Assembly (NCBI GenBank): GCA_027482505.1
Contig: JAIXVY010000492.1
Coordinates: forward strand, 1 to 37,036
Reading direction: 5' to 3'
DNA: 37,036 bases
From: Opitutaceae bacterium
Lineage (GTDB): Bacteria > Verrucomicrobiota > Verrucomicrobiia > Opitutales > Opitutaceae
In this document: piece after piece, positions 2,685-16,009 of the stretch
How the letters are laid out: each line of letters begins with the position of its first letter
Position numbering within the stretch: the stretch's first letter is position 1
Translations under genes and position numbers: made by a program
The notes under the pieces: model-generated
What the model saw: only the letters and a program-made list of their open reading frames with translations
Told to the model about the DNA's origin: nothing
The model's database searches: none

Positions 2685-5600
2685 ATGTTGCCCGCCAATC
2701 CCCTGCTTCAGCTCGTTCCCGCGCGCGTCTCGGCCGCGCTCAATCGCGTCCGCGGTCTTGTGTGGCGCGAAGTCGCGCGTGTTTCCGACATTCGGGCCAC
2801 GGCCGCCGCGCCGGTCCACCGCACTTTCGCCGAGGCGAAGCGCGAGCCGCTGGCGCCGGTGGCGACGCCGGCGCATTGGGGAAAGCTCTGGGACCAGCGT
2901 TGGTTCAAGCTCGTCCTCCCCGCCGCGCTGCGCGGTCGCGGGGATCTCTATCTCGCGTGGAACGACCAGGCCGAATCCACCCTGTATGTCGACGGCCGAC
3001 CGCACTACGGCTTCGACGTCGCGCACAAGCAGGCGCCTCTGCCCGCCGGCTCGCGGGAACTGTGGATCGAGGGCGTGGTTTGCCAGACTGGCGTCTGGCA
3101 TCCCGACGCCACCGGACTGGATGCGGCCGGCTCCCGCCTCGACGGCGCGCGCATCCTGGAACGCGACGAGGCCCACTGGGGACTTTACCACGACCTGCTG
3201 GCGCTCGACGGACTGGCGCGCGAGGAGCTGCGGACGTTTTTCGGCGAGGATTCGGTCAAGTTCGGCGGCTTCGGCGAGCGTCCCGTCCTGCACAAGGTGT
3301 CGCCCTTGCTGCGTCGCCTGCTGCGCGGCCTGGAGGAGGGGCTGGACGCCTATGAGACCGGCGGAGCGGCGGCCGCGCGCCGCCGCCTCGCGCGGCTCTT
3401 CCGCGAGCTGCCCGCCGCGCCGACGGCTACGCGCGCCCTGCTGACCGGCCACGCCCACATCGATCTGGTGTGGCTCTGGCCCGAGAAGGTCGGGGAGTTC
3501 AAGGCCGTGCACACCTTCGCCACCGCGAACCGGTTGTTCGAGCGCTACCCCGAGTTTCGCTTCGGTTACAGCCAGCCGGCGAGCTACGCCGCGGTGGGTC
3601 GCCGCGCGCCCGCCCTGCTCGCGGAGGTGAAAAAGCGCATTCGCGAGAAACGCTGGGACGCGATCGGCGCCACCGAGGTCGAGAGCGACACCCTGCTCGC
3701 CTGCGGCGAGGCGCTGGCGAGGAGTTTCCTGGTCGGCCAGCGGCGCTTCGCCGAGCTGCGCGGCTCGCCTTCGCGCCTGCTTTGGCTGCCCGATGTGTTC
3801 GGCTACGCGCCCTGCCTGCCCCAGCTCATGCGCGAGACCGGCGTCGAGTATTTCTACACCACCAAGCTCGCATGGTCGGGGCTCACCCGGTTTCCGCACA
3901 GCAGCTTCGTGTGGCGCGGGCACGACGGGAGCGAGGTGGTCTGCCACATCAGCCACGAGGGCGGCTACAACCAGCAGGCCACGGCCGGGCAGCTCCGGCT
4001 CGGCGAGCTCGCGCATCGGCAGAGCGACACGCACCCCGAGTTCATCGCCCCGACCGGCTTTGGCGACGGCGGAGGAGGAGTGACGGAGGAAATGTGCGAG
4101 CGGGCGCGGCGCTACGCCGATCTCGCGGGATTGCCGCGCGCGGAGTGGGGCAACCTCGAGCCCTTCTTCGACCGCTTGAACAAGCTTCGCCCCGCGCTGC
4201 CCGTCTACCAGGGCGAACTCTATCTGGAGTATCACCGCGGCACCTACACGACGCACGGCGACATCAAGGCCGGCATGCGCCGCGCCGAGCGAGCGCTGCA
4301 GGCGCACGAGGCGGCGCGCTGCGCGCTGGGCCGCGGGCCGATCGACGAGCACGCGTGGCGCCGGGTGATCTTCGCCCAGTTTCACGATTACATCCCCGGC
4401 AGCTCGATCCACGAGGTCTATGACGAGGCCCGCGTCGAGCTGGCCGACCTCGCGCGAGGCGCGCGCGAGGCGGCTAGCCGGGAGCTGGGCGCCAAAGGCG
4501 CGCCCGCACTTTTCAACCCGCTGCCGCGTCCGCGCCTGCATCTGCTCGGCGCGCGCGAGGACGGCGGGGTGGACGCGGTCACGCTGCCGCCGCTCGCCGG
4601 CGCGCCACTCGCCGGGCTGGAGCGGGTGGAGGGCCTCGCGCCGGTGCGCGCCACCGCGCGCCGACTGGAGAACGGGCGGGTGCGGGCCGATATCGACCCG
4701 CTGGGCCGAGTGAGCCGGCTGGTTGTCGACGGGCGCGAGATCGCGCTGCGCGCCCCGCTCGGCGAACTGGTTGTCTATCCGGATCGTCCGCACCTTTTCG
4801 AGGCGTGGGACATCGACCGTCATTCCCTCGCCTTGGGCGAGCCGGTCCGGACAAAGGCCAAGCTTTCCCTTGAGCGCGCGGACGCGGCGGGCGCGACGAT
4901 CGCGTGCGCGCGTTCCCTGGGCGAGGCGGGCGAAGTCACGATCCGTTACACGCTGGAGGCGGGCGCGGCGCATCTGCGCGTGGAGGTGGAGCTCGACTGG
5001 CGGCGGCCGGAGGCGCTCCTAAAGATTATTTTCCCGACCGCCTACGCCGGACGGCAGGCCCGCTACGGGTCCCCCTTTGGCTCGGTGTCGCGCGGCCAGG
5101 TGCCGGGCGAGCTGGCGGACGAGGCGAAGTGGGAGGTGCCGGCCAGCCGCTGGGCCGCCGTGACGGACGAGACCGAGAGCGACGGTCTGTTCGTGGTCAC
5201 CGAGTCCAAGTATGGTTTCGGCTGCCGCGACGGCGCGCTGAGTCTCAGTCTTGTGCGCAGCGCGAAAATCACCGCCGAAGGCGGCGGCGACCATTCCTAC
5301 GGCTCGCATCCGGCGACCATTCGGCGCACGCGCGCCGCCTCCCTGTTTTCCGACATGTGCGCGCATCGCATCGCGCTCGCCCTCGGGCGTCACGATGCGG
5401 GCGCGCCTCGCGAAGAGCAGGCGGCCGCGCTGGCGGACACGCTTTTCACCGAGCCCGTGGCGTATCGGGGCGGCGTGGCGGGCGCCGGATTGCTGGGCTT
5501 GGAGGGCGGGGAAACCCTGCACCCGGTCTGGGCCAAGCCGGCCGAAGCGGGCAAGGGCGCCTGGGTGCTGCGGCTCAACGAGACCCTCGGTCGCCGCGGC

Positions 5601-5759
5601 CGCTCGCTGGTGCGGCTGGCGCCCGGCTGGCGGGCGCGGCGGGTGGATCTGTTGGAGCGGCCGCTCGCCGGCGGAGTGCGCGTCGCGCGCGGGGGCGTGG
5701 CGGTGGATTACACGCCTTACGCGCTGGTCAGTCTGCTGGTCGAGCGCGTGCGGGCTTGA
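2685..5759 (+). CDS. GH38-family alpha-mannosidase
   Basis: TGHAHIDLVWLWPEKVGEFKAVHTFATANRLFERYPEFRFGYSQP, LLWLPDVFGYAPCLPQLMRETGVEYFYTTKLAWS, FAQFHDYIPGSSIHEVYDEA are characteristic GH38 motifs. Confidence 0.95.
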   Translation: MLPANPLLQLVPARVSAALNRVRGLVWREVARVSDIRATAAAPVHRTFAEAKREPLAPVATPAHWGKLWDQRWFKLVLPAALRGRGDLYLAWNDQAESTLYVDGRPHYGFDVAHKQAPLPAGSRELWIEGVVCQTGVWHPDATGLDAAGSRLDGARILERDEAHWGLYHDLLALDGLAREELRTFFGEDSVKFGGFGERPVLHKVSPLLRRLLRGLEEGLDAYETGGAAAARRRLARLFRELPAAPTATRALLTGHAHIDLVWLWPEKVGEFKAVHTFATANRLFERYPEFRFGYSQPASYAAVGRRAPALLAEVKKRIREKRWDAIGATEVESDTLLACGEALARSFLVGQRRFAELRGSPSRLLWLPDVFGYAPCLPQLMRETGVEYFYTTKLAWSGLTRFPHSSFVWRGHDGSEVVCHISHEGGYNQQATAGQLRLGELAHRQSDTHPEFIAPTGFGDGGGGVTEEMCERARRYADLAGLPRAEWGNLEPFFDRLNKLRPALPVYQGELYLEYHRGTYTTHGDIKAGMRRAERALQAHEAARCALGRGPIDEHAWRRVIFAQFHDYIPGSSIHEVYDEARVELADLARGAREAASRELGAKGAPALFNPLPRPRLHLLGAREDGGVDAVTLPPLAGAPLAGLERVEGLAPVRATARRLENGRVRADIDPLGRVSRLVVDGREIALRAPLGELVVYPDRPHLFEAWDIDRHSLALGEPVRTKAKLSLERADAAGATIACARSLGEAGEVTIRYTLEAGAAHLRVEVELDWRRPEALLKIIFPTAYAGRQARYGSPFGSVSRGQVPGELADEAKWEVPASRWAAVTDETESDGLFVVTESKYGFGCRDGALSLSLVRSAKITAEGGGDHSYGSHPATIRRTRAASLFSDMCAHRIALALGRHDAGAPREEQAAALADTLFTEPVAYRGGVAGAGLLGLEGGETLHPVWAKPAEAGKGAWVLRLNETLGRRGRSLVRLAPGWRARRVDLLERPLAGGVRVARGGVAVDYTPYALVSLLVERVRA

Positions 5760-5790
5760 GCGCGGAGGCGGAGCGCGGCAGTCGTCGGGG

Positions 5791-6408
5791 ATGCGCATCG
5801 GCATCCTCGGCGGCAGCTTCGACCCCGTGCACCGCGGCCACCTCGGCGTGGCGCGGGCGGTGGCGGACGCGTTGTCCCTGGAGCGCGTGCTGCTGATGCC
5901 GGCGGCCCAGGCCCCGCTGCGGGACGCCGGGGTGAGGGCGGCTGGCGCGATTCGCGCGGCGATGCTCCGGCTGGCGCTGGCGGAGCTGGCCGAGCGCGAG
6001 GCGGAGCAAAGACTCGAATTGGACGAGACCGAGCTGCGGCGCGGGGGCGTGAGCTACACGGCGGACACTTTGCGGGCGCTGCGGGTCGCGCGGCCGGAGG
6101 ATTCGTTCACGTGGATCGTGGGCGCGGATCAACTGGCGCGCCTGGGAAGCTGGCGCGAGCCCGCGGAACTGGCGCGCCTCGCGGACTGGGCCGCCTACGC
6201 GCGTCCCGGTTTTGATTGGGACGCCCTGTCCGCGCCGGCTATTCCCGGTCTCAGGGTGCAGCGGGTGGAGCCGGCGGCGGGGGCGCTTTGGGACGTGAGT
6301 TCGAGCGAGATCCGGTCGCGTCTGGGGAGGGGCGAGAGCGTCGCCGGACTGCTGCCGGACAAGGTGATTGAATACATTCGCGAAAACGGCCTCTATCGCC
6401 CGCAGTAA
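5791..6408 (+). CDS. nadD: Nicotinate-nucleotide adenylyltransferase
   Basis: MRIGILGGSFDPVHRGHLGVARA nucleotidylyltransferase motif; WIVGADQLARLGSW; C-term VSSSEIRSRLGRGESVAGLLPDKVIEYIRENGLY. Confidence 0.95.
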   Translation: MRIGILGGSFDPVHRGHLGVARAVADALSLERVLLMPAAQAPLRDAGVRAAGAIRAAMLRLALAELAEREAEQRLELDETELRRGGVSYTADTLRALRVARPEDSFTWIVGADQLARLGSWREPAELARLADWAAYARPGFDWDALSAPAIPGLRVQRVEPAAGALWDVSSSEIRSRLGRGESVAGLLPDKVIEYIRENGLYRPQ

Positions 6409-6415
6409 AACGCCC

Positions 6416-6967
6416 ATGCCGACTCAAATCGCTCCCGACGCCCAGACGACCGCGCTGCTGCGCAACCTGATCACCGCGCTGGAGGACAAGAAGGCGGACA
6501 ACCTGAAGCTGCTGCATGTCGGCGGCCTCTCCGACATCACCGATTACCTCGTGCTGGCCACGGGCAACAGCGAGCCGCATCTGCGCGCGCTGCGCATCGA
6601 GACGGAGAAGGTGCTCGACGCGGCCAAGGTGAAAATCGCCGGCATGGACTCGGGCGGTTTCAACAGCGGTTGGACCGTGGTCGACGCCTATCAGATCATG
6701 GTGCATTTTTTCACCGCCGAGCAGCGCGAGAACTACGCGTTGGACAAGCTCTGGAAGGACGCGGTCGAGGTGGATTCGAAGACTTTCTCCGCCAAGGCGG
6801 CCCCCGCGGCCAAGGCGCGCGTCGCGAAGGCCAAGCCGGCCGCCAAAAAATCCGCGGTCAAGAAGCCCGCGGGCAAGGCCGCGAAGTCGACTAAGGCCAA
6901 GCCCAAGGCCAAGGCGCCCGCCGCGAAGAAACCGGCGGCCAAGCCCGCGCGCAAAAAGAAGGCCTGA
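6416..6967 (+). CDS. rsfS: Ribosomal silencing factor RsfS (iojap/DUF143) with Lys/Ala/Pro-rich C-terminal extension
   Basis: LLHVGGLSDITDYLVLATGNSEPHLRALRIETEKVL...SGWTVVDAYQIMVHFFTAEQRENYALDKLW is the iojap core; directly downstream of nadD. Tail SAKAAPAAKARVAKAKPAAKKSAVKKPAGKAAKSTKAKPKAKAPAAKKPAAKPARKKKA. Confidence 0.93.
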   Translation: MPTQIAPDAQTTALLRNLITALEDKKADNLKLLHVGGLSDITDYLVLATGNSEPHLRALRIETEKVLDAAKVKIAGMDSGGFNSGWTVVDAYQIMVHFFTAEQRENYALDKLWKDAVEVDSKTFSAKAAPAAKARVAKAKPAAKKSAVKKPAGKAAKSTKAKPKAKAPAAKKPAAKPARKKKA

Positions 6968-6975
6968 GGTCTTTT

Positions 6976-7008
6976 TGGGCCGCGGCCGTGTCCCGCGAGC
7001 GCGGCCCA
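6976..7008. terminator. Hairpin between convergent rsfS and DUF481 gene
   Basis: TGGGCCGCG...CGCGGCCCA, 9-bp perfect stem, 15-nt loop; no strong T-tract on either strand. Confidence 0.4.
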
Positions 7009-7018
7009 GAGGCGCGGT

Positions 7019-8122
7019 TTAGAAAGCGTAGCCTATCGCGCTGGTGATGCGCTGCGTCTCGCGGGCGGACTCGATCTTGATCGCGTTGTCCAACTCGTAT
7101 TCGAAGCGCAAATTCACGGAGATTTTTTCGGTGACCTTGCCCTGGAGGGTGCCGTTGAAGCGCACCTTGTAGTTTTGCTCCTCGGGATTGACGGTGCCGG
7201 GCGTGCCGCGGCTCGGGATGTTGAACGCGCGGTCGGACGGGGAGTATTGGGCGACGGCGTCCTGAATGAAGGTGATGCGGTCGTTCACCTTGAACGTGTA
7301 GTCCTGGAAAATTTCCGCGTAAGGCGCCCAGCCGTTCGTGCCGGCGTTCCATTCGCGGTATTGGGCGGTGGCGCCGCTGCCGACATTCAAGGTGTGGCCG
7401 GGTAGGTCGAGCAGACGGTAGCCCACGCCCGCGTTTTGCTCCAGATTGGTCCTGATTTGGATGATATCATCCGCGTAGTAGGTGGTCTGGGCTTGGGCAA
7501 ACGTGCGTTTGGAGAGCTGGTAGCGCCAGCGCAGGGAGGCGTCCTGGCGGTCGGCGCTGGTGCGGTTGTTTTGCTCGGCGTAGAGCACCCGGGCATTGCC
7601 CCGGAGCGCGTGGCGGCGGACGTTTTTCTCGGCCTCGGCGCGCGCGTTGTAGCTTAGCGTGTCGGAGCGGCCGGTTTGCTGGACGGAGCCCAGCTCCACC
7701 TTGCCTTTCCAGCGCTCCTTGGCGGGCGCGGCGGCCAGGTTCGCGGCGGGCGCGGATCCCAAGGAGCCGGGGGTGGGCTTGTTTTCTTTCGCCACCGCGG
7801 CGGACGCGCCAGCCGTAGGCTTGGCGGCGCGTTGACGCGTGGTTCCTTGCGCGGATGCGACGGGATCCAGCGGCTCTGGAACCTCCATAATGGCCGCGTC
7901 CGTCTCCGCGAGCGTCATATCGCCGAGAATGGGCGAGCGGAAACGGATTTTGCCTTCGGCGCGCCAGATGATTTCTCCGCTCAGCCTGTCACCGTTGGAT
8001 AGTTGAAGCTCAACGCGTTGTCCCGGGCGCGCGGATTCCGTGGCGGCTTGCGCGCGGGCGGGTGAATACCCGGCGAGGAGGGCCAAGCCTATGCAGGAAA
8101 CCAGGACGCGGACGGATGGCAT
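7019..8122 (-). CDS. DUF481-type (YdiY-like) outer-membrane beta-barrel protein
   Basis: Signal peptide MPSVRVLVSCIGLALLAGYSPARAQA; WKGKVELGSVQQTGRSDTLSYNARAEAEK...RWRYQLSKRTFAQAQTTYYADDI...NVGSGATAQYREW; terminal aromatic (...SAIGYAF). Confidence 0.85.
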   Translation of the reverse strand: MPSVRVLVSCIGLALLAGYSPARAQAATESARPGQRVELQLSNGDRLSGEIIWRAEGKIRFRSPILGDMTLAETDAAIMEVPEPLDPVASAQGTTRQRAAKPTAGASAAVAKENKPTPGSLGSAPAANLAAAPAKERWKGKVELGSVQQTGRSDTLSYNARAEAEKNVRRHALRGNARVLYAEQNNRTSADRQDASLRWRYQLSKRTFAQAQTTYYADDIIQIRTNLEQNAGVGYRLLDLPGHTLNVGSGATAQYREWNAGTNGWAPYAEIFQDYTFKVNDRITFIQDAVAQYSPSDRAFNIPSRGTPGTVNPEEQNYKVRFNGTLQGKVTEKISVNLRFEYELDNAIKIESARETQRITSAIGYAF

Positions 8123-8236
8123 GATACGGTGAAAGACAATCGTTGGCGGCGGGCGAGCGGGAAAGGCCTAGGTATAAGAGTTTCTGTCGACGGCCGTCGG
8201 GTTTGGTTATGCCAAGGGGTAAAATCGCCTTGTCTT

Positions 8237-8263
8237 TGCGTGTAGTGGGAGTAGGACCACGCA
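8237..8263 (+). promoter_or_regulatory. Stem-loop in putative pilin 5' leader
   Basis: TGCGTG-15 nt-CACGCA. Confidence 0.3.
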
Positions 8264-8268
8264 TGTTC

Positions 8269-8285
8269 CCCGAATTTCTTTCGGG
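8269..8285 (+). promoter_or_regulatory. Stem-loop in putative pilin 5' leader
   Basis: CCCGAA-TTTCT-TTCGGG, 35 nt before the pilin ATG. Confidence 0.35.
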
Positions 8286-8319
8286 AGAAAATTATAAACA
8301 AACAATACTCAGTTCACCT

Positions 8320-8667
8320 ATGAACACTCGCAAGTCCCAGGGCTTCACCCTCGTAGAAATCATGATCGTCGTCGTCATCATCGGCCTCCTGGCTGCGATG
8401 GCGATTCCCGCGTTCCAGAAGGTTCGCACCGCCTCCCAGGACAAGGCCGTCCTTAACAACGCCCGCCAGCTCGGCGCCGCCGCCGACCAATACTTCCTCG
8501 AGTTCGGCACCTCCCAGGCCGACATCACCTCGCTGGTCGGCGCCAGCGCTTACATCAAGTCCCTCAGCACCGTGGCGAACGAGAGCTATCCCGGCAACTA
8601 CACCCAGGGCACGCCCATCACGATCAGCGGCATCGCGGGCAATCGCACCATCACCTATCTCCAGTAA
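8320..8667 (+). CDS. Type IV prepilin-like protein (short, class III signal)
   Basis: MNTRKSQGFTLVEIMIVVVIIGLLAAMAIPAFQKVR: basic leader, G^FTLVE processing site, hydrophobic N-helix. Confidence 0.93.
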   Translation: MNTRKSQGFTLVEIMIVVVIIGLLAAMAIPAFQKVRTASQDKAVLNNARQLGAAADQYFLEFGTSQADITSLVGASAYIKSLSTVANESYPGNYTQGTPITISGIAGNRTITYLQ

Positions 8668-8697
8668 TCGCCGCCGTCACCCTGTGGCAAAAACAAG

Positions 8698-8725
8698 ACC
8701 GCTTGCCCATGGCAGGCGGTTTTTT
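8698..8725 (+). terminator. Intrinsic terminator downstream of first pilin gene
   Basis: ACCGCTTGCC-CAT-GGCAGGCGGT (10 bp, one G-T pair) followed by TTTTTT(G)TTTTT. Confidence 0.85.
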
Positions 8726-8752
8726 GTTTTTCGCCCGCAACCCAAGCATCCC

Positions 8753-9088
8753 GTGAAAGCGGCTTTTACGCTGGTCGAGATTATGGTGGTGGTCGTGGTG
8801 ATCGGCCTGCTCGCCGCCTTGGCCCTGCCCGCGTTCGACAAAGTGAGGATAGCATCGCAGGACAAGACGGTCCTGAACAACACGCGCCAGCTGGCCGCGG
8901 CCGCGGACCAGTATTTTCTGGAGTGCGGCGTGTCCACCGCGGCCATCACCTCGCTGGTGGGGCCGGACTCCTATGTGAAGTCCCTCAGCACGGTGGCGAA
9001 CGAGAGCTATCCCCTGGTCTTCACGCAGAACGTGCCGATTACCGTCGCCGGCATCGCCGGCACGCGAACGATCACCTACTTCCACTGA
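8753..9088 (+). CDS. Second, paralogous type IV prepilin-like protein (start codon uncertain)
   Basis: VKAAFTLVEIMVVVVVIGLLAALALPAFDKVR...; strongly similar to the upstream pilin. GTG at 8753 proposed; the longer ORF start (GTG 8684) would overlap the terminator hairpin. Confidence 0.8.
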   Translation: MKAAFTLVEIMVVVVVIGLLAALALPAFDKVRIASQDKTVLNNTRQLAAAADQYFLECGVSTAAITSLVGPDSYVKSLSTVANESYPLVFTQNVPITVAGIAGTRTITYFH

Positions 9089-9117
9089 GCACTGGAAAAT
9101 CGCGGTTTGTCTCCGCG

Positions 9118-9149
9118 CCGCCGTCCTCCTTTGAGGAGGGCGGTTTTTT
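9118..9149 (+). terminator. Terminator-like hairpin after second pilin, ending at the ATG of the next gene
   Basis: CCGCCGTCCTC-CTTT-GAGGAGGGCGG (11 bp, one G-G mismatch) then TTTTTT directly before ATG 9150. Confidence 0.75.
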
Positions 9150-11015
9150 ATGACCAAACGCCTCCTGCTTTTCGTCCTGGTGGTGCTGCTCGCCCTGCAG
9201 CTCGGCTTTCTCGCTTTTGATCCCGCCCAAGCCGTTGATGTGGTGAAAAAAGGAGGCTACGCCTGGATGCTCGCGATCCACGCCTGGTTCGCCTGGGCGC
9301 TGTGGAGCAGTCTGGCGGACGAGCGCGCCCGCTGGCGCGACATCCTGCGCCGCCGCGCCGGCGTCGCGATTTTCCTTTTGGCCGCCGCCGGCTTGCTGCA
9401 CGTCCAGGAGCGCCATGAATTCAAGATCGTGGCCGACGAGCTGGTGATCGGAAACACCGCCATGCGGATGCATTTCGATCGCTCGGCGTCCGCGGTGCTT
9501 CGCGCCTACGACTACGCCGGCAATTACACCGTCCTGAACGACACCGTGGACAAGCGGCCGCTGGCCTTCCCGTTTCTCCTCGCGACCGTGCACGACCTCA
9601 CCGGCTATCGGGTCGCGAATGTTTTCTGGCTCAACGCCGCCATCAGCCTGGGGCTGATCGCGACCGCCTGGCTGGTCGCCGCCCGGCTGGGCGGGACCAA
9701 GGCCGGCGTGGCGTCGGTGGTGCTGCTCTGCGGCGTGCCGCTGATCGCGCAAAACGCCACCGGGGCGGGCTTCGAGCTGCACAACCTCTTCATGATCTTT
9801 CTCACGCTCTGGCTGGGCCTGCGCTATGCGGAGCGGCCGGAGGGCGCGCGCCTGGCCGCCTTCGTCCTGGCGGGAGTGATCCTTTGCCAGGTCCGCTACG
9901 AATCCGCGTTGTTCGCCCTGCCGGTGGGGGCGAGCGTGCTGTGGGTGTGGTGGCGGGAACGGCGCGCGGATTTCGCCCCGGTGGTGTTCGCCGCCCCCCT
10001 GCTCATGCTGCCGGTGCCGTTGCAGCAAAACGTGTTCAAGATCAGCGAGGCCACCTGGCAGCTGAACGATGTCGCGGGCGCCACCACGCCCTTCGGGCTC
10101 GGCTATTTTTACGACAACGTCGGCCACGCCTTGAACTTTTTCTTCAGCTTCGACGGCGCCCAGCCCAGCTCGTGGCTGCTGGCCCTGCTCGGCGGCGTGG
10201 CGACCGGCTTCGCCCTGCTGCGCGTCTACCGCGAGCATCGCGCCCTGGGCGCGGCGCGGACCGGAGAGACGGTGGCGGCCATCTTCATCGCTGGCCTGCT
10301 GCTGCACGCGCTGGTGATGTTGTGCTACTTCTGGGGCAAGTGGGACGACCCGATCATCCGCCGCCTCAGCCTGCCCACCCACGCGTTGTTCATCGTCGCC
10401 CTCGCCTTTGTGTGGGGCCGGCTGGTGCGGCATGCCCGCGCCTGGGAGGGTTTGATCGCGGCCGGTGCGCTGCACCTGGTGTTTTTCGCCCTGCCCGCCT
10501 CGGCGCGCCATCCCTTCACCCAGGAGAATTTCGCGGCCGCGACCTGCAACTGGGTCTCGGATTTTGTCCGCGACTCCGTGCCCGGCACGGCGCTGGCGGT
10601 GGACGACAACGCCGGCCACGTCTGGTTCCTGCACCGCAAGTCGTGCGTGAGCCCGGAGCGGCTGACCCTGAACTGGGAGGGCTACGTCCGTCACTTCGAG
10701 CGGCGAAGCTTTTCGGAATACATCGTCGTCCAGCGCATAGGCGTGGATCAGACGACCGGCGAGAAATACGTGTCCGCCAAGGATGACTTCGGCGACGGGC
10801 TGCGATTGCAGCTCATCGAGGAGCGCATGTTCGCCCCCTTCTATTTTATGCGCATCAGCCGCGTCGTGGGCGTGGACCGGGACAAGCTGCGCGCCTGGGC
10901 CGAAGAGCGCGCAAAAGCGCGCGCCGCGGCGCGCGCGAGCGGCCTGCGCGAGCCGTTTTCCACCCAGGTGGTGAATCCGGATCTGCTGGCCGACTGGTTC
11001 AAGGCCCTGCCTTGA
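9150..11015 (+). CDS. Polytopic membrane protein, GT39/PMT-like glycosyltransferase (GT-C)
   Basis: Multiple TM helices; KRPLAFPFLLATVHDLTGYRVANVFWLNAAISLGLIATAWLVAARLGGTKAGVASVVLLCGVPLIAQNATGAGFELHNLFMIF typical of PMT_2-like proteins. Confidence 0.75.
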   Translation: MTKRLLLFVLVVLLALQLGFLAFDPAQAVDVVKKGGYAWMLAIHAWFAWALWSSLADERARWRDILRRRAGVAIFLLAAAGLLHVQERHEFKIVADELVIGNTAMRMHFDRSASAVLRAYDYAGNYTVLNDTVDKRPLAFPFLLATVHDLTGYRVANVFWLNAAISLGLIATAWLVAARLGGTKAGVASVVLLCGVPLIAQNATGAGFELHNLFMIFLTLWLGLRYAERPEGARLAAFVLAGVILCQVRYESALFALPVGASVLWVWWRERRADFAPVVFAAPLLMLPVPLQQNVFKISEATWQLNDVAGATTPFGLGYFYDNVGHALNFFFSFDGAQPSSWLLALLGGVATGFALLRVYREHRALGAARTGETVAAIFIAGLLLHALVMLCYFWGKWDDPIIRRLSLPTHALFIVALAFVWGRLVRHARAWEGLIAAGALHLVFFALPASARHPFTQENFAAATCNWVSDFVRDSVPGTALAVDDNAGHVWFLHRKSCVSPERLTLNWEGYVRHFERRSFSEYIVVQRIGVDQTTGEKYVSAKDDFGDGLRLQLIEERMFAPFYFMRISRVVGVDRDKLRAWAEERAKARAAARASGLREPFSTQVVNPDLLADWFKALP

Positions 11016-13014
11016 GGTCCGGCCGCGGCGGCGCGCCTGTCGCGCGCTCCAGCAGCTCCACCATGCCGGAGGTCGGCAAATCGATCGCGATGGCGACCTC
11101 CCCGGCGTCCAGCCTGTAGACAAGCATGGACGAGTGGATGACGGCGTCCGGCCGGCGCAGTCGAAGATACTGGGCGAGACGCGCGTAGCGCAGGCGCTCA
11201 TAAACCCAGCGGCCGTGTTCGGCCGGCGTTCCATTTTGAACCAGGGCGCCTTTCCAGGATTCGGGGTGGGCGCGGAAATGCGCCGCCTGGTAGTGGAAGG
11301 TGTTTTCCTTGTCCTGGCTCCAGGCGCCGTTCATCGGGCTGTAGACGTCCTGAAGCACGGTCGCGCCGAAGCAGTAGAGCCCAGGTTCCAGACGCGCGAG
11401 CTCGGGCTCTCGCCAGAGCGCGGAAAACACCGCGAACGGTTTCGCGTCCATGCCTTCGTAACGCGGATCCCCGACGCCGAAATAGCCGAGATAGACAGGC
11501 TCGCCCGGCTTGCGGTGGGCTCGCAGCCAGTCTGCCAGGGCGGGCAGATCCTGGCCCCAGTCGAGCGAGCTGTCCACCAGGTGCCGCCAGCGGTTCTCCG
11601 GCGGGCCGGCGAGCGGGTTGAAGGCGGCGAGGTAAGAGGGATAGGCGCGCGCGGCTGCCACGGCCTGCCCCGCGATCAGCAGCGCCGCGAACGCCGCGCT
11701 CCACCGCCCGGCCGAGCGGCGCGCGAATGCGCCGGCGAGGATGAAGAGCGGCGGGTAGAGCGGCAGGATATGCCGGTGGCCGATGTTGAGGTTGCTGGTC
11801 AGCGAGGCGGCGCCGTAGACGACGACCAGCGCGGCCAGGGGCGCGGCGAGATCGGTCAGCCGGGTGGCGACGGCGCGCGCGTCGCCGTAGCCGGGGCGTT
11901 TGCGCGCCGCCAGCACCGCGAGGATGACCACACCGGCCAGGCCGGCCACCGCGGCCAGCTCGGCGAAAGACGATTTGATCAAAAAGGCGTAGGGAAAAAA
12001 CCACCACCACCCCGTCGAGGTGTAGAGCCCCGCCGCGAACGCTCCGCGCGCCTCGCTGGCCTGAAGCACATAGGCGAGGCCGTGCGTGTAGGCCTCGGGC
12101 AGGACGCGATATTCCTTCAGAAACAGGAGCAGGGCGCGCCGGGGGCCGTCGTCGGGAAGCAATTGGTCCCAGGGGATGTAAAGCGTTTGAAGAGCCGGCA
12201 GTCCCGGCGCCCCCGCCTGATAGCGAAAGCCAAACGCGCCCCACACCACGAGGCCCGCGACGGTGGCGTGCGCCGCAGTCAGCAAGGCGGCATGGCCGAG
12301 CGCCCTGCCTTTCGCGCGCCGGGTCTTTTCACGCGGCAGCAGCCAGTTCGCGCCGAGCAGCACGGCGTAGACGCCGGGCAGAAGAAGGACCGAAAACTTG
12401 GCGATCGCGGCGAGGCCGGTGAGGGCGAGGCTCAGGGCCAGCCGCCCGGACGCAGGCTCGCGAAGCTGTCGCCAAAACGCGCCGGAGGCGGCGAGCAGGC
12501 AGACGGCGGCCGCCATGTCGGACGTCACGAGCGGACCGTGCGCGAGCATGGTCGTGGACCCCGCGCAAAGCGCGAGCGAGAGGAGCCCGCCCGCGTTTCC
12601 CCAAAGGCGGCGCGACCAGAAAAACACCAGCAGGCAGGCGGCCGCGCCCCAGAGGATCATGGCACCTCGGCCGGCGGCCAGCAGCGCCTCCGGCGTGTTG
12701 CCGCTTTCATAAAGGGTCCTTTGCCCGACGCGCCAGACGTCGGATCTCGCCCATTCCGCTCGCGCCTCGGCCGGATCGAAGCGCGGCGCCAGGGGCAGCA
12801 GGGCCAGGCCGGCCCAGCGCTGGGGCAGATTGCCGTTCTCGGGCTGGAAGCGGTAGTCGTTGAATTTCCAATACGAATAGCCCGCGACGAGGTGGGCGCT
12901 TTCGTCGAAAGCCGGCCCCTTGCCCAGGCTGGCGGTCCAGCCGGTCCACGCGTAGGCCGCGAGCAGGAGCGCGACCAGCGCGGTCAGAAGAGGGCGGCGG
13001 AGCGGAGGGAGCAT
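10999..13014 (-). CDS. GT39/PMT-like membrane glycosyltransferase (GT-C)
   Basis: GPAFDESAHLVAGYSYWKFNDYRFQPENGNLPQRWAGLALLP...; GHRHILPLYPPLFILAGAFAR; DSSLDWGQDLPALADWLRAHRKPGEPVYLGYFG. Start ATG 13014 chosen. Confidence 0.82.
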   Translation of the reverse strand: MLPPLRRPLLTALVALLLAAYAWTGWTASLGKGPAFDESAHLVAGYSYWKFNDYRFQPENGNLPQRWAGLALLPLAPRFDPAEARAEWARSDVWRVGQRTLYESGNTPEALLAAGRGAMILWGAAACLLVFFWSRRLWGNAGGLLSLALCAGSTTMLAHGPLVTSDMAAAVCLLAASGAFWRQLREPASGRLALSLALTGLAAIAKFSVLLLPGVYAVLLGANWLLPREKTRRAKGRALGHAALLTAAHATVAGLVVWGAFGFRYQAGAPGLPALQTLYIPWDQLLPDDGPRRALLLFLKEYRVLPEAYTHGLAYVLQASEARGAFAAGLYTSTGWWWFFPYAFLIKSSFAELAAVAGLAGVVILAVLAARKRPGYGDARAVATRLTDLAAPLAALVVVYGAASLTSNLNIGHRHILPLYPPLFILAGAFARRSAGRWSAAFAALLIAGQAVAAARAYPSYLAAFNPLAGPPENRWRHLVDSSLDWGQDLPALADWLRAHRKPGEPVYLGYFGVGDPRYEGMDAKPFAVFSALWREPELARLEPGLYCFGATVLQDVYSPMNGAWSQDKENTFHYQAAHFRAHPESWKGALVQNGTPAEHGRWVYERLRYARLAQYLRLRRPDAVIHSSMLVYRLDAGEVAIAIDLPTSGMVELLERATGAPPRPDLKAGP

Positions 13015-13086
13015 CGTCGAGGCCGAAGGCAAAAGGCGTGGACAGAGGTTCCCGCCCCGGGGAGCCTCGTCAATCTTCGCCCCATC

Positions 13087-13824
13087 ATGAACGCAGAGGA
13101 ATACGCCAACCTGGAGCGCGTCGAGGCCGACCACTGGTATTACGCCGGCAAGCGAGAGATCGCGCGCCGGTGGCTGGAGCGTGCGCGCCCGATCACGCCG
13201 ACGGACCGGTTGCTCGACTGCGGCGCGGGCACGGGCCGCTTCGCGCAGGAGATGGACGGGCTGTGCCAGGTCACCGTGCTGGACGACCACGAGGAGGCCT
13301 TGCGCCTGCTGCGCGCGAAGTTTCCCGCCGGGCGGGTGATCAGCCTGGCCGGCGACCGCGTGCCCTTGCCTGACGGATCGCTGGACTACGTGACCGCGCT
13401 GGATGTTCTCGAGCACACGCCGGACGACGCCGCGGTGGTGCGCGGTTTCCATCGCTTGCTCAAACCCGGCGGCGTGGCCCTGGTGACGGTGCCGGCGAGC
13501 ATGGCGCTCTGGAGCGACTGGGACGTCGTTCTCCACCACTATCGCCGCTATTCCCGCGCCGAGCTGGAGCGGCTTTTCCCCGCCGCCGAATGGGAGCTGG
13601 TGCATTCCAACTACACCAACGTGTTCGCCTTTCCGGCGGTGTGGCTGCTGCGGCGCTGGCGCCGCTGGTTTCCCGCGGGGCAGGGCGCCCGGGCGGAGGA
13701 CAAGGTGCCTTCGTCTTGGCTGAACTGTCTGCTGCGCGCCTCGTTTGTGAGGCCCGCGTTCTGGCGCGTGCGTTTTCCTTTCGGCGTCAGTCTGCTGCTC
13801 GTGGCTCGCCGACGGGCGGTCTGA
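13087..13824 (+). CDS. Class I SAM-dependent methyltransferase
   Basis: RLLDCGAGTGRFAQEMDG (motif I), LDYVTALDVLEHTPDDAAVVRGFHRLLKPGGVALVTVPA. Confidence 0.9.
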   Translation: MNAEEYANLERVEADHWYYAGKREIARRWLERARPITPTDRLLDCGAGTGRFAQEMDGLCQVTVLDDHEEALRLLRAKFPAGRVISLAGDRVPLPDGSLDYVTALDVLEHTPDDAAVVRGFHRLLKPGGVALVTVPASMALWSDWDVVLHHYRRYSRAELERLFPAAEWELVHSNYTNVFAFPAVWLLRRWRRWFPAGQGARAEDKVPSSWLNCLLRASFVRPAFWRVRFPFGVSLLLVARRRAV

Positions 13825-16009
13825 GCGGTTCGGCGCCGTTGGGGAAGCGGAGAAACGCCACGGTGCGGTCGTCGGCGCCGGCCAGGCGGAAAACAAAGAG
13901 GGCGGCCGCCGCCGGGTCGGGCGGCGTCCAGTCGAAGGCGAAGGCCCTGGCCGGTCCGGCCGGGAGCGGGAACGAGACGGCGCGCGCATCGTCGCCGGCG
14001 CTCGCGCGGGGCGCGGCGAGGACAACGCGGCCGCGTTCCGCGCTCAGGCGCGTGTCGTAGGCCTCGATCGCCAGCACCGTCTCCGTGGTGGCGGCGAGGC
14101 GGGTGGACAGCCTCCACACGCCAGGAGCCGAGGGCGCGGGTGTGGCTTCGAGGACGTGAAACGGGGTGAAGGCCGCCCCGGGCCTCGTCCAGAGGGAAAA
14201 CACGTCGACTCCCAGCGCCTCGCGATAGTTTTGCCACAGGTGACCGACCAGCGGTCCCCGAACCGGGAATCCATTTTGGGCGAGATGCACCAGCTGGGCG
14301 CGCTGCAGCACGAACGCGGGACGGTCGGCCTTCTCGAGGCCGGCCGCGATCGCGCGCTGGTCCTCTTCGCCCAGAAGCGAAAACCAGTGGGTCACGTTGC
14401 GCAGGCCGGGCGTCGGCAGGCGCGTCCACTGGTTGAAGCTGAAAGCGCCGGGCAGGCTGAAGAGCATGTCGGCGTTTTCACGCGCGTTGACCGCGATGAC
14501 GTTGACGGCGCCGGCGATGGCCGGCGGCAGCAGTATGCGCTCCGCGCCCGGCAGTCCCAGCGCCACGCCGTCGGCGCGACGCTCGCGGGCTATCTTTGCC
14601 AGCGTGAAAAGAGGCAGCAGGGAAAACACGAGCGCCAGGCCGGCGGACGACCTTCCGAGCCAGGCGGCGCGCGGCGGCGGCAGCTTTTCTCCCAGGTGGC
14701 GGAGCGTGTCCACCGCGCCGAGCGCGAGCAGCGGAATCCAGAGAAACGTGCCCCAGTTGAGCTGGCTGCCCGCGATGGGAAAGGCCTGCAGGGACTGCGT
14801 CACGAGGAGCAGCGCCAGCCAGGCGCGCACGCGGGGCTCCGAATCGCCGTCGGGCGCCGCGAGCGGTATTGCGAACAGACCCGCGGCCGGCACGCCGTAG
14901 CACAACGCCAGCGCCGCCTGGCTGGAGCCGATCCACGGCAGCAGGCCAAGGAGCATTCCGGCTATGATCAGCGTCCGGGCCGCGGCCACGAGCGCGAGCG
15001 CCGCCGGGGATTTGGGCCGCGCCGCCCAGAAAAGCGTGAGCGCGAGGGCGGCCAGCGCGAAAGGGACGACCAAGGGGCGCCAGCGCACGGGGAACGAATA
15101 TATGCCCGGGTGGCGCATGGGTTCGAGCACCACGCCGCGCAGCAGCGCGTCCAGACTCGTGCCGTTGAGCAGGGCCCAACAGGCCACGGCGGCGGTGGCG
15201 ACAAGCCCGGCCGCTATGAAAACGAGCAGCGGGCGCTCGCCGTCGCCGCGTCCGCGTAGGCGCGCGGCCACGATCGCCGCCCCCAGTCCGCCCAGCGAGG
15301 CGACTATCGCGTAGGTCGGCACCCAGGGTTTATCGATGAGCCCGCGCATGAGCGCCAAGGGCAGCAGGCCTAGCGTCAGCGCGACGAGGGCGGAGGGCAG
15401 CGCGGCCCATTTTGCGGAGACGGGGCGCAGGCCCAGGAGAAGCCACAATCCGGCCGGAATCACCAGGAAGGCGCCGACGTTTATCTTGGTGAGCGCGATG
15501 ACGGCGCCGAGCGTTCCCAGCGTCGCGGCGAAAACGAGCGGTCGTCCCGCGCGAACACACTCCGCGCCCAGCCAAGCGGCCAACGCGACCAGCAGCGTGA
15601 TGAATCCGCCGGGGTGGCCCGGTTCCTGAAGCATGATCCAGAGCAGCGTGAAAACACCGACCGCGGAGAACAGCGCCGCGCTCGCCAGCCGCCGAACGCG
15701 CCACACCAGCAGGCCGCAGAGCAGGGAGGCGCAGACCCAGTTGAACAGGGTGAACCAGCGCGCCGAAGTGTTGTCCCACGCAAAGCCCAGCGCCGCCCGC
15801 AAGGAGTCGAGCGCCGCGTAGAAGAAGGGGCCGTATTGCGAATAGACCTTGTCGTAGAGCCCGCCGTGCTCGGCGAAATTTCGCAACGAGAGCAGGATGT
15901 AGCCCTCGTCGTCGTAGAGCATGAACGACGTGAACAGCAGATCGCGGCCGATCCACGCCAGCAACGGCGCCACCCAGAGCCAGCCGAGCATGTGCCGGCG
16001 CCTGGTCAA
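13787..16009 (-). CDS. Large polytopic membrane protein, GT39/GT-C-like
   Basis: About a dozen hydrophobic segments; DDEGYILLSLRNFAEHGGLYDKVYSQYGPFFYAALDSLRAALGFAWDN typical of GT-C N-terminal periplasmic loops; start overlaps upstream GT2 by ATGA. Confidence 0.7.
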   Translation of the reverse strand: MTRRRHMLGWLWVAPLLAWIGRDLLFTSFMLYDDEGYILLSLRNFAEHGGLYDKVYSQYGPFFYAALDSLRAALGFAWDNTSARWFTLFNWVCASLLCGLLVWRVRRLASAALFSAVGVFTLLWIMLQEPGHPGGFITLLVALAAWLGAECVRAGRPLVFAATLGTLGAVIALTKINVGAFLVIPAGLWLLLGLRPVSAKWAALPSALVALTLGLLPLALMRGLIDKPWVPTYAIVASLGGLGAAIVAARLRGRGDGERPLLVFIAAGLVATAAVACWALLNGTSLDALLRGVVLEPMRHPGIYSFPVRWRPLVVPFALAALALTLFWAARPKSPAALALVAAARTLIIAGMLLGLLPWIGSSQAALALCYGVPAAGLFAIPLAAPDGDSEPRVRAWLALLLVTQSLQAFPIAGSQLNWGTFLWIPLLALGAVDTLRHLGEKLPPPRAAWLGRSSAGLALVFSLLPLFTLAKIARERRADGVALGLPGAERILLPPAIAGAVNVIAVNARENADMLFSLPGAFSFNQWTRLPTPGLRNVTHWFSLLGEEDQRAIAAGLEKADRPAFVLQRAQLVHLAQNGFPVRGPLVGHLWQNYREALGVDVFSLWTRPGAAFTPFHVLEATPAPSAPGVWRLSTRLAATTETVLAIEAYDTRLSAERGRVVLAAPRASAGDDARAVSFPLPAGPARAFAFDWTPPDPAAAALFVFRLAGADDRTVAFLRFPNGAEPLRPPVGEPRAAD

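Follow-up and report, generated by a model that had tools for sequence, protein, structure and literature searches.

The window, a 37,036-nt stretch of an Opitutaceae genome, contains two tandem type IV pilin genes and, immediately downstream on the same strand, the gene of a GT-C membrane glycosyltransferase (Table 1). According to a terminator scan, both pilin genes are followed by a terminator-like hairpin (8695–8731 and 9117–9149, respectively), and the tandem pilin pair is also found in the nearest relative (L004/L008). The second pilin gene has lost the usual leader (8753–8770): behind its GTG start, MKAA precedes FTLVE, and Ala replaces Gly at position –1, so that processing of this pilin by the prepilin peptidase may be impaired. 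Its sister in L004 retains MNTKG.

Table 1. Features of the pilin/GT-C locus (positions refer to the window)
Feature	Position	Strand	Evidence
Type IV pilin gene 1, encoding 115 aa with the leader MNTRKSQG ahead of FTLVEIM	8320..8667	+	PF07963, E 2.6e-9; ORF
Terminator-like hairpin and T-rich tail behind pilin gene 1	8695..8731	+	Terminator scan; the nearest relative has the same element behind its pilin 1
Type IV pilin gene 2, second of the tandem pair, probable GTG start	8753..9088	+	PF07963, E 6.7e-5; alignment (73% identity with pilin 1)
Terminator hairpin of the pilin transcript	9117..9144 (alternative register 9121..9143)	+	z –4.2; terminator scan; paired changes in 27 touching relatives
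AGGAGG, SD-like, 3′ arm, probably incidental	9134..9139	+	1 of 27 touching hairpins; chance about 0.2
T6 tail of the terminator, abutting the start codon	9144..9149	+	Sequence; zero distance in 27 of 95 GT-C genes
Gene of the 621-aa GT-C membrane glycosyltransferase, an accessory that probably modifies the pilin	9150..11015	+	PF13231; DE and KRP motifs; model pLDDT 90.9; PDB matches

The GT-C protein matched the Pfam family PF13231 (PMT_2); no NCBIfam match was found. Residues D96-E97 and K135-R136-P137 (KRP) are invariant across its homologues. Its AlphaFold2 model (pLDDT 90.9) shows a confident helix from residue 2, and a Foldseek search of the PDB with this model returned OST, ArnT, PMT and AftA, with E values down to 4e-7 for OST, ArnT and AftA. 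The PMT_2 match, the invariant motifs, the confident model and these structural matches identify the protein as a GT-C glycosyltransferase, and it indeed combines a multi-helix membrane fold with an acidic motif (D96-E97) in the first long loop. Since the homologues align from residue 1–4 and the confident helix begins at residue 2, a start codon 3′ of the first membrane helix is unlikely. Homologues are present in 113 of 373 Opitutales genomes, and among 286 genomes sampled across the class the family was essentially confined to this order, with one marginal match outside (E 4e-4). As suggested by gene adjacency, the enzyme probably glycosylates the pilin; among the hits listed by our literature search, no paper on pilin glycosylation in Opitutales was recognised. 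In many relatives, the GT-C gene is directly followed by another one, with neither pilin nor terminator between them (e.g., G335:C94, G375:C78, G339:C20, and G012:C93), and several of these second copies contain in-frame stops. In the window, a second PMT/GT-C-like membrane protein appears, by eye, to be encoded convergently behind the GT-C gene (10999–14025, minus strand).

At the junction of pilin gene 2 and the GT-C gene, the sequence runs from CCGCC (9118 onward) through AGGAGG and the T6 tail directly into the ATG at 9150–9152. The initial annotation had described the hairpin, the T-run and the abutting ATG at these positions, and the predicted structure agrees: the region 9105–9165 folds with –26.3 kcal/mol, as compared to –14.9 ± 2.7 kcal/mol for 200 dinucleotide shuffles, none of which folded as well. 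The terminator scan of the window also picked up this site. The favoured folds are just two registers of the same hairpin, one of 6 + 5 bp and a single G-G mismatch (9117–9144), which is the minimum free energy structure, and one of 10 bp including one G-U pair (9121–9143). With a stable GC-rich hairpin and a T-run immediately 3′ of it, the sequence has the make-up of an intrinsic terminator. AGGAGG, located 10 nt 5′ of the ATG, is buried in both registers, so that for the window sequence the predicted structure hides it, as the initial annotation had stated; in a 190-nt context, five of its six bases are paired (unpaired probability ≤0.033), G9138 being the mismatch. Next to the hairpin, the prediction leaves the U-run and most of the AUG unpaired. 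An Rfam scan identified no family at the hairpin site, and nearby it gave only a sub-threshold Thr_leader match on the opposite strand (8692–8804).

The arrangement recurs in the order Opitutales. A pilin gene is located ≤300 nt upstream of 83 of the 115 GT-C starts examined, with a terminator-like hairpin between in 77 of the 83. Among the 95 GT-C genes of our tree set, zero bases separate the T-tail from the start codon in 27, two of which (G002 and G004) have a broken T-run, TCTTTT, and were counted by hand; the distance is 1–5 nt in six genes, 8–28 nt in twelve and 42–231 nt in 40, and ten genes lack a recognised terminator (the distance in G015 was corrected by hand). Touching junctions are found in seven of the eight members of the window's clade, in nine of 17 members of another clade within the window's family (with three more near), in eight of nine members of a clade from a different family (f11), and in smaller groups, exact zero spacing recurring in at least four separated clades. 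On the tree, the contact requires a minimum of 12 changes, yet it is clustered, as none of 500 shuffles, which ignore relatedness, gave so low a number. In nearly all touching junctions, 51–63 nt lie between the pilin stop and the ATG; the hairpin begins 18–38 nt behind the stop. In L019, L022, and L027, the sequence preceding the GT-C ATG resembles a decayed terminator without a hairpin; L019 and L027 have GGAGGAG before the ATG and a pilin gene 260–400 nt upstream.

The best stems of the touching junctions comprise 8–11 bp, and both partners of the pair vary wherever positions were counted; the third pair from the base, for instance, is CG, GC, or TA. Because pairing is what the stem search selects for, this covariation indicates different sequences forming the same element rather than an independent test of each pair. 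With its compensatory stem changes and its recurrent contact with the next start codon, the intrinsic-terminator-like element behind the pilin gene supports the terminator part of the initial annotation. The alignment of the junction in relatives, which the initial annotation had proposed, revealed the expected paired changes in the 27 touching stems, but not the conservation of AGGAGG, which is present in the window's hairpin alone.

The contact does not reflect a genome-wide style. TTTTTTATG occurs 3–37 times per genome in six genomes and overall is not commoner than its reversal; inspection of the 38 other occurrences in the window's genome and in G034, a complete genome from the window's family, yielded about one credible gene behind a credible hairpin per genome (L135, L153). 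In a 400-kb sample of G034, a co-directional gene was touched by the terminator at none of 13 terminator-like sites, a strict and small count. Such a style was rejected on these grounds, and as there is only about one other credible case per genome, the contact is a rarity there outside the pilin/GT-C junction. A terminator in contact with the start codon is a genuine, recurring feature, and it is specific to the pilin/GT-C junction.

From the base-pair composition of the family, AGGAGG would be expected at least once among 27 hairpins with P about 0.2, and a strong Shine-Dalgarno (SD) sequence is absent at most other GT-C starts, so that conservation of an SD in the relatives was rejected. 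In 400 kb of G034 (L210–L229), SD 4-mers were found at 47 of 221 starts (21%) and at 36 of 184 internal ATGs (20%), as compared to 22 of 29 starts (76%) and 2 of 28 internal ATGs (7%) in an E. coli control (L244) handled in the same way; gene starts are approximate in this count, but the procedure recovered the E. coli signal. The lack of enrichment at starts, unlike in E. coli, suggests that initiation in G034 is largely SD-independent. The corresponding numbers for the window, 8 of 21 starts and 3 of 17 internal ATGs, are too few to judge, and the tools used located the 16S 3′ end with the anti-SD neither in G000 nor in G034. The AGGAGG of the window hairpin looks like a coincidence.

We propose, with a probability of about 0.6, that the locus is a pilin-accessory cassette with a leaky terminator, in which the GT-C mRNA arises by read-through, little enzyme is made per pilin, and the pilin is probably glycosylated. 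To the anatomy of the junction, the recurrent contact, the stem covariation, the GT-C fold and the absence of a conserved SD, which emerged from the analysis itself, this proposal adds that termination is partial, that the GT-C mRNA stems from read-through, that the enzyme is scarce relative to pilin, and that the pilin is its substrate, all of which we infer. A promoter upstream of the pilin genes would drive transcription, most of which would end at the hairpin (9117–9149); a minority of RNA polymerases would pass it and carry on into the GT-C gene, resulting in little enzyme per pilin, and this enzyme would probably glycosylate the pilin. As no base lies between the T-tail and the ATG, the hairpin would form the immediate 5′ leader of the GT-C gene on the read-through mRNA, and initiation would probably occur from U6-AUG without a conserved SD. 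The order of the window genes is that of such a cassette, with a pilin gene directly upstream, the terminator between, and a co-directional accessory membrane gene downstream. No sigma-70-like promoter was found in positions 5000–14000 by a scan covering sigma-70 promoters of model bacteria only; as only the hairpin and the T-run, and no recognised promoter, precede the ATG, read-through is the simplest and likely source of GT-C mRNA. In E. coli, a terminator is fully efficient only if it is more than about 27 nt away from the stop codon, since the ribosome hinders folding of the hairpin (PMC4824070). By the same effect, heavy translation of the pilin could favour some read-through at the pilin/GT-C junction, where the ribosome would finish the pilin 18–38 nt upstream of the hairpin.

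What speaks against the cassette are the approximately 40 of 95 relatives with a gap of 42–231 nt between T-tail and ATG, which leaves room for a separate promoter. The terminator might instead be complete, with a separate, unrecognised promoter in the 3′ end of the pilin gene or in the short gap, and the contact with the ATG mere compactness. We regard this as unlikely. Promoters of other types would escape a sigma-70 scan, and one clade of the long-gap relatives shares the motif RGCTTTYCATTTT some 40 nt ahead of the GT-C ATG, where it may be part of a promoter or a sign that these members have their own control. However, the gap between pilin stop and hairpin is just about 20–35 nt in the touching junctions, no conserved motif was noticed in it, and any transcript begun upstream of the hairpin must still pass the terminator. 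Thirteen long-gap relatives (e.g., L014, L015, L048, L055, L061, and L064) share GCCAAnnRGCTTTYCATTTT about 40 nt 5′ of the GT-C ATG, a candidate promoter element. A leaderless promoter inside the hairpin was dismissed, since by eye no –10-like sequence is present in the GC hairpin and T-run.

Another explanation, which we consider quite improbable, is that the contact itself is under selection, the hairpin and U6-8 beside the AUG forming an SD-less, translation-limiting initiation site besides terminating transcription. The recurrence of zero spacing in separated clades with stem covariation and T-tails kept, and the predicted unpaired state of the U-run and most of the AUG beside the hairpin, are consistent with this idea. 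However, selection for a terminator alone explains the stem and the T-run, so that only the zero distance needs more, and losses and gains of this distance on the tree number at least 12. The contact may be compactness tolerated by SD-less initiation, or it may be a selected second brake on translation. With a similarly low degree of belief, the fusion of terminator and start could be regarded as a selected, repeatedly maintained device of a low-SD lineage, in which one element would set both GT-C mRNA, by read-through possibly sensed via the ribosome finishing the pilin, and translation, by the hairpin and U6-8. If the contact is functional, it would represent a simple natural design in which one hairpin sets transcript and translation levels in a lineage with apparently little use of SD sequences.

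The two-level switch of the initial annotation, in which the hairpin ends transcription and on read-through RNA hides AGGAGG, so that its opening regulates translation, is very improbable, since AGGAGG, although buried in a fold whose opening costs more (16.2 kcal/mol) than anti-SD pairing returns (about –11 kcal/mol), occurs in a single touching hairpin at odds attributable to chance, SD motifs are not enriched at G034 gene starts, and neither an alternative fold or trigger nor an Rfam family was seen at the site. The reading as a terminator, with coupling of pilin and GT-C expression, is plausible, and its recurrence strengthens it. The occurrence of the same arrangement in many Opitutales suggests that pilin glycosylation with built-in control of stoichiometry may be common in this order.

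Hairpins with an SD-like sequence in one arm before the start codon are known from SD-sequestering leaders and from riboswitches acting as both terminator and sequestor. The window hairpin resembles them in its arm with an SD-like sequence before the start, but differs in that no aptamer, alternative fold, or Rfam family was found at the site and in that the SD-like sequence is not conserved. In rpsU-dnaG of E. coli, a leaky terminator inside the operon separates a gene of high expression from one of low expression and reduces the output of the latter; the Opitutales genes are unrelated to these, and the T-tail abuts the start codon, unlike in rpsU-dnaG. The closest likeness is to the P. aeruginosa cassettes, in which the major pilin gene pilA is followed by a Rho-independent terminator and, beyond it, by a membrane accessory gene such as tfpO, tfpW, tfpX, tfpY, or tfpZ (PMC11841053). 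Terminator mutations raised TfpY, and the terminator was needed for cross-complementation; in groups I and IV, the accessory protein is a pilin glycosyltransferase, and the terminator is thought to set stoichiometry (PMC11841053). With this tested precedent, the pilin/GT-C coupling proposed in the initial annotation is plausible, whereas its SD-based translational part is not upheld. Unlike the P. aeruginosa cassettes, the Opitutales unit belongs to another phylum and has a GT-C family that this analysis found in Opitutales only. In roughly a quarter to a third of its members, the accessory start codon follows the terminator without any gap, a contact read in the Opitutales junctions alone. 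The pilin-terminator-accessory cassette tested in Pseudomonas would thus extend to another phylum and to an unstudied GT-C family.
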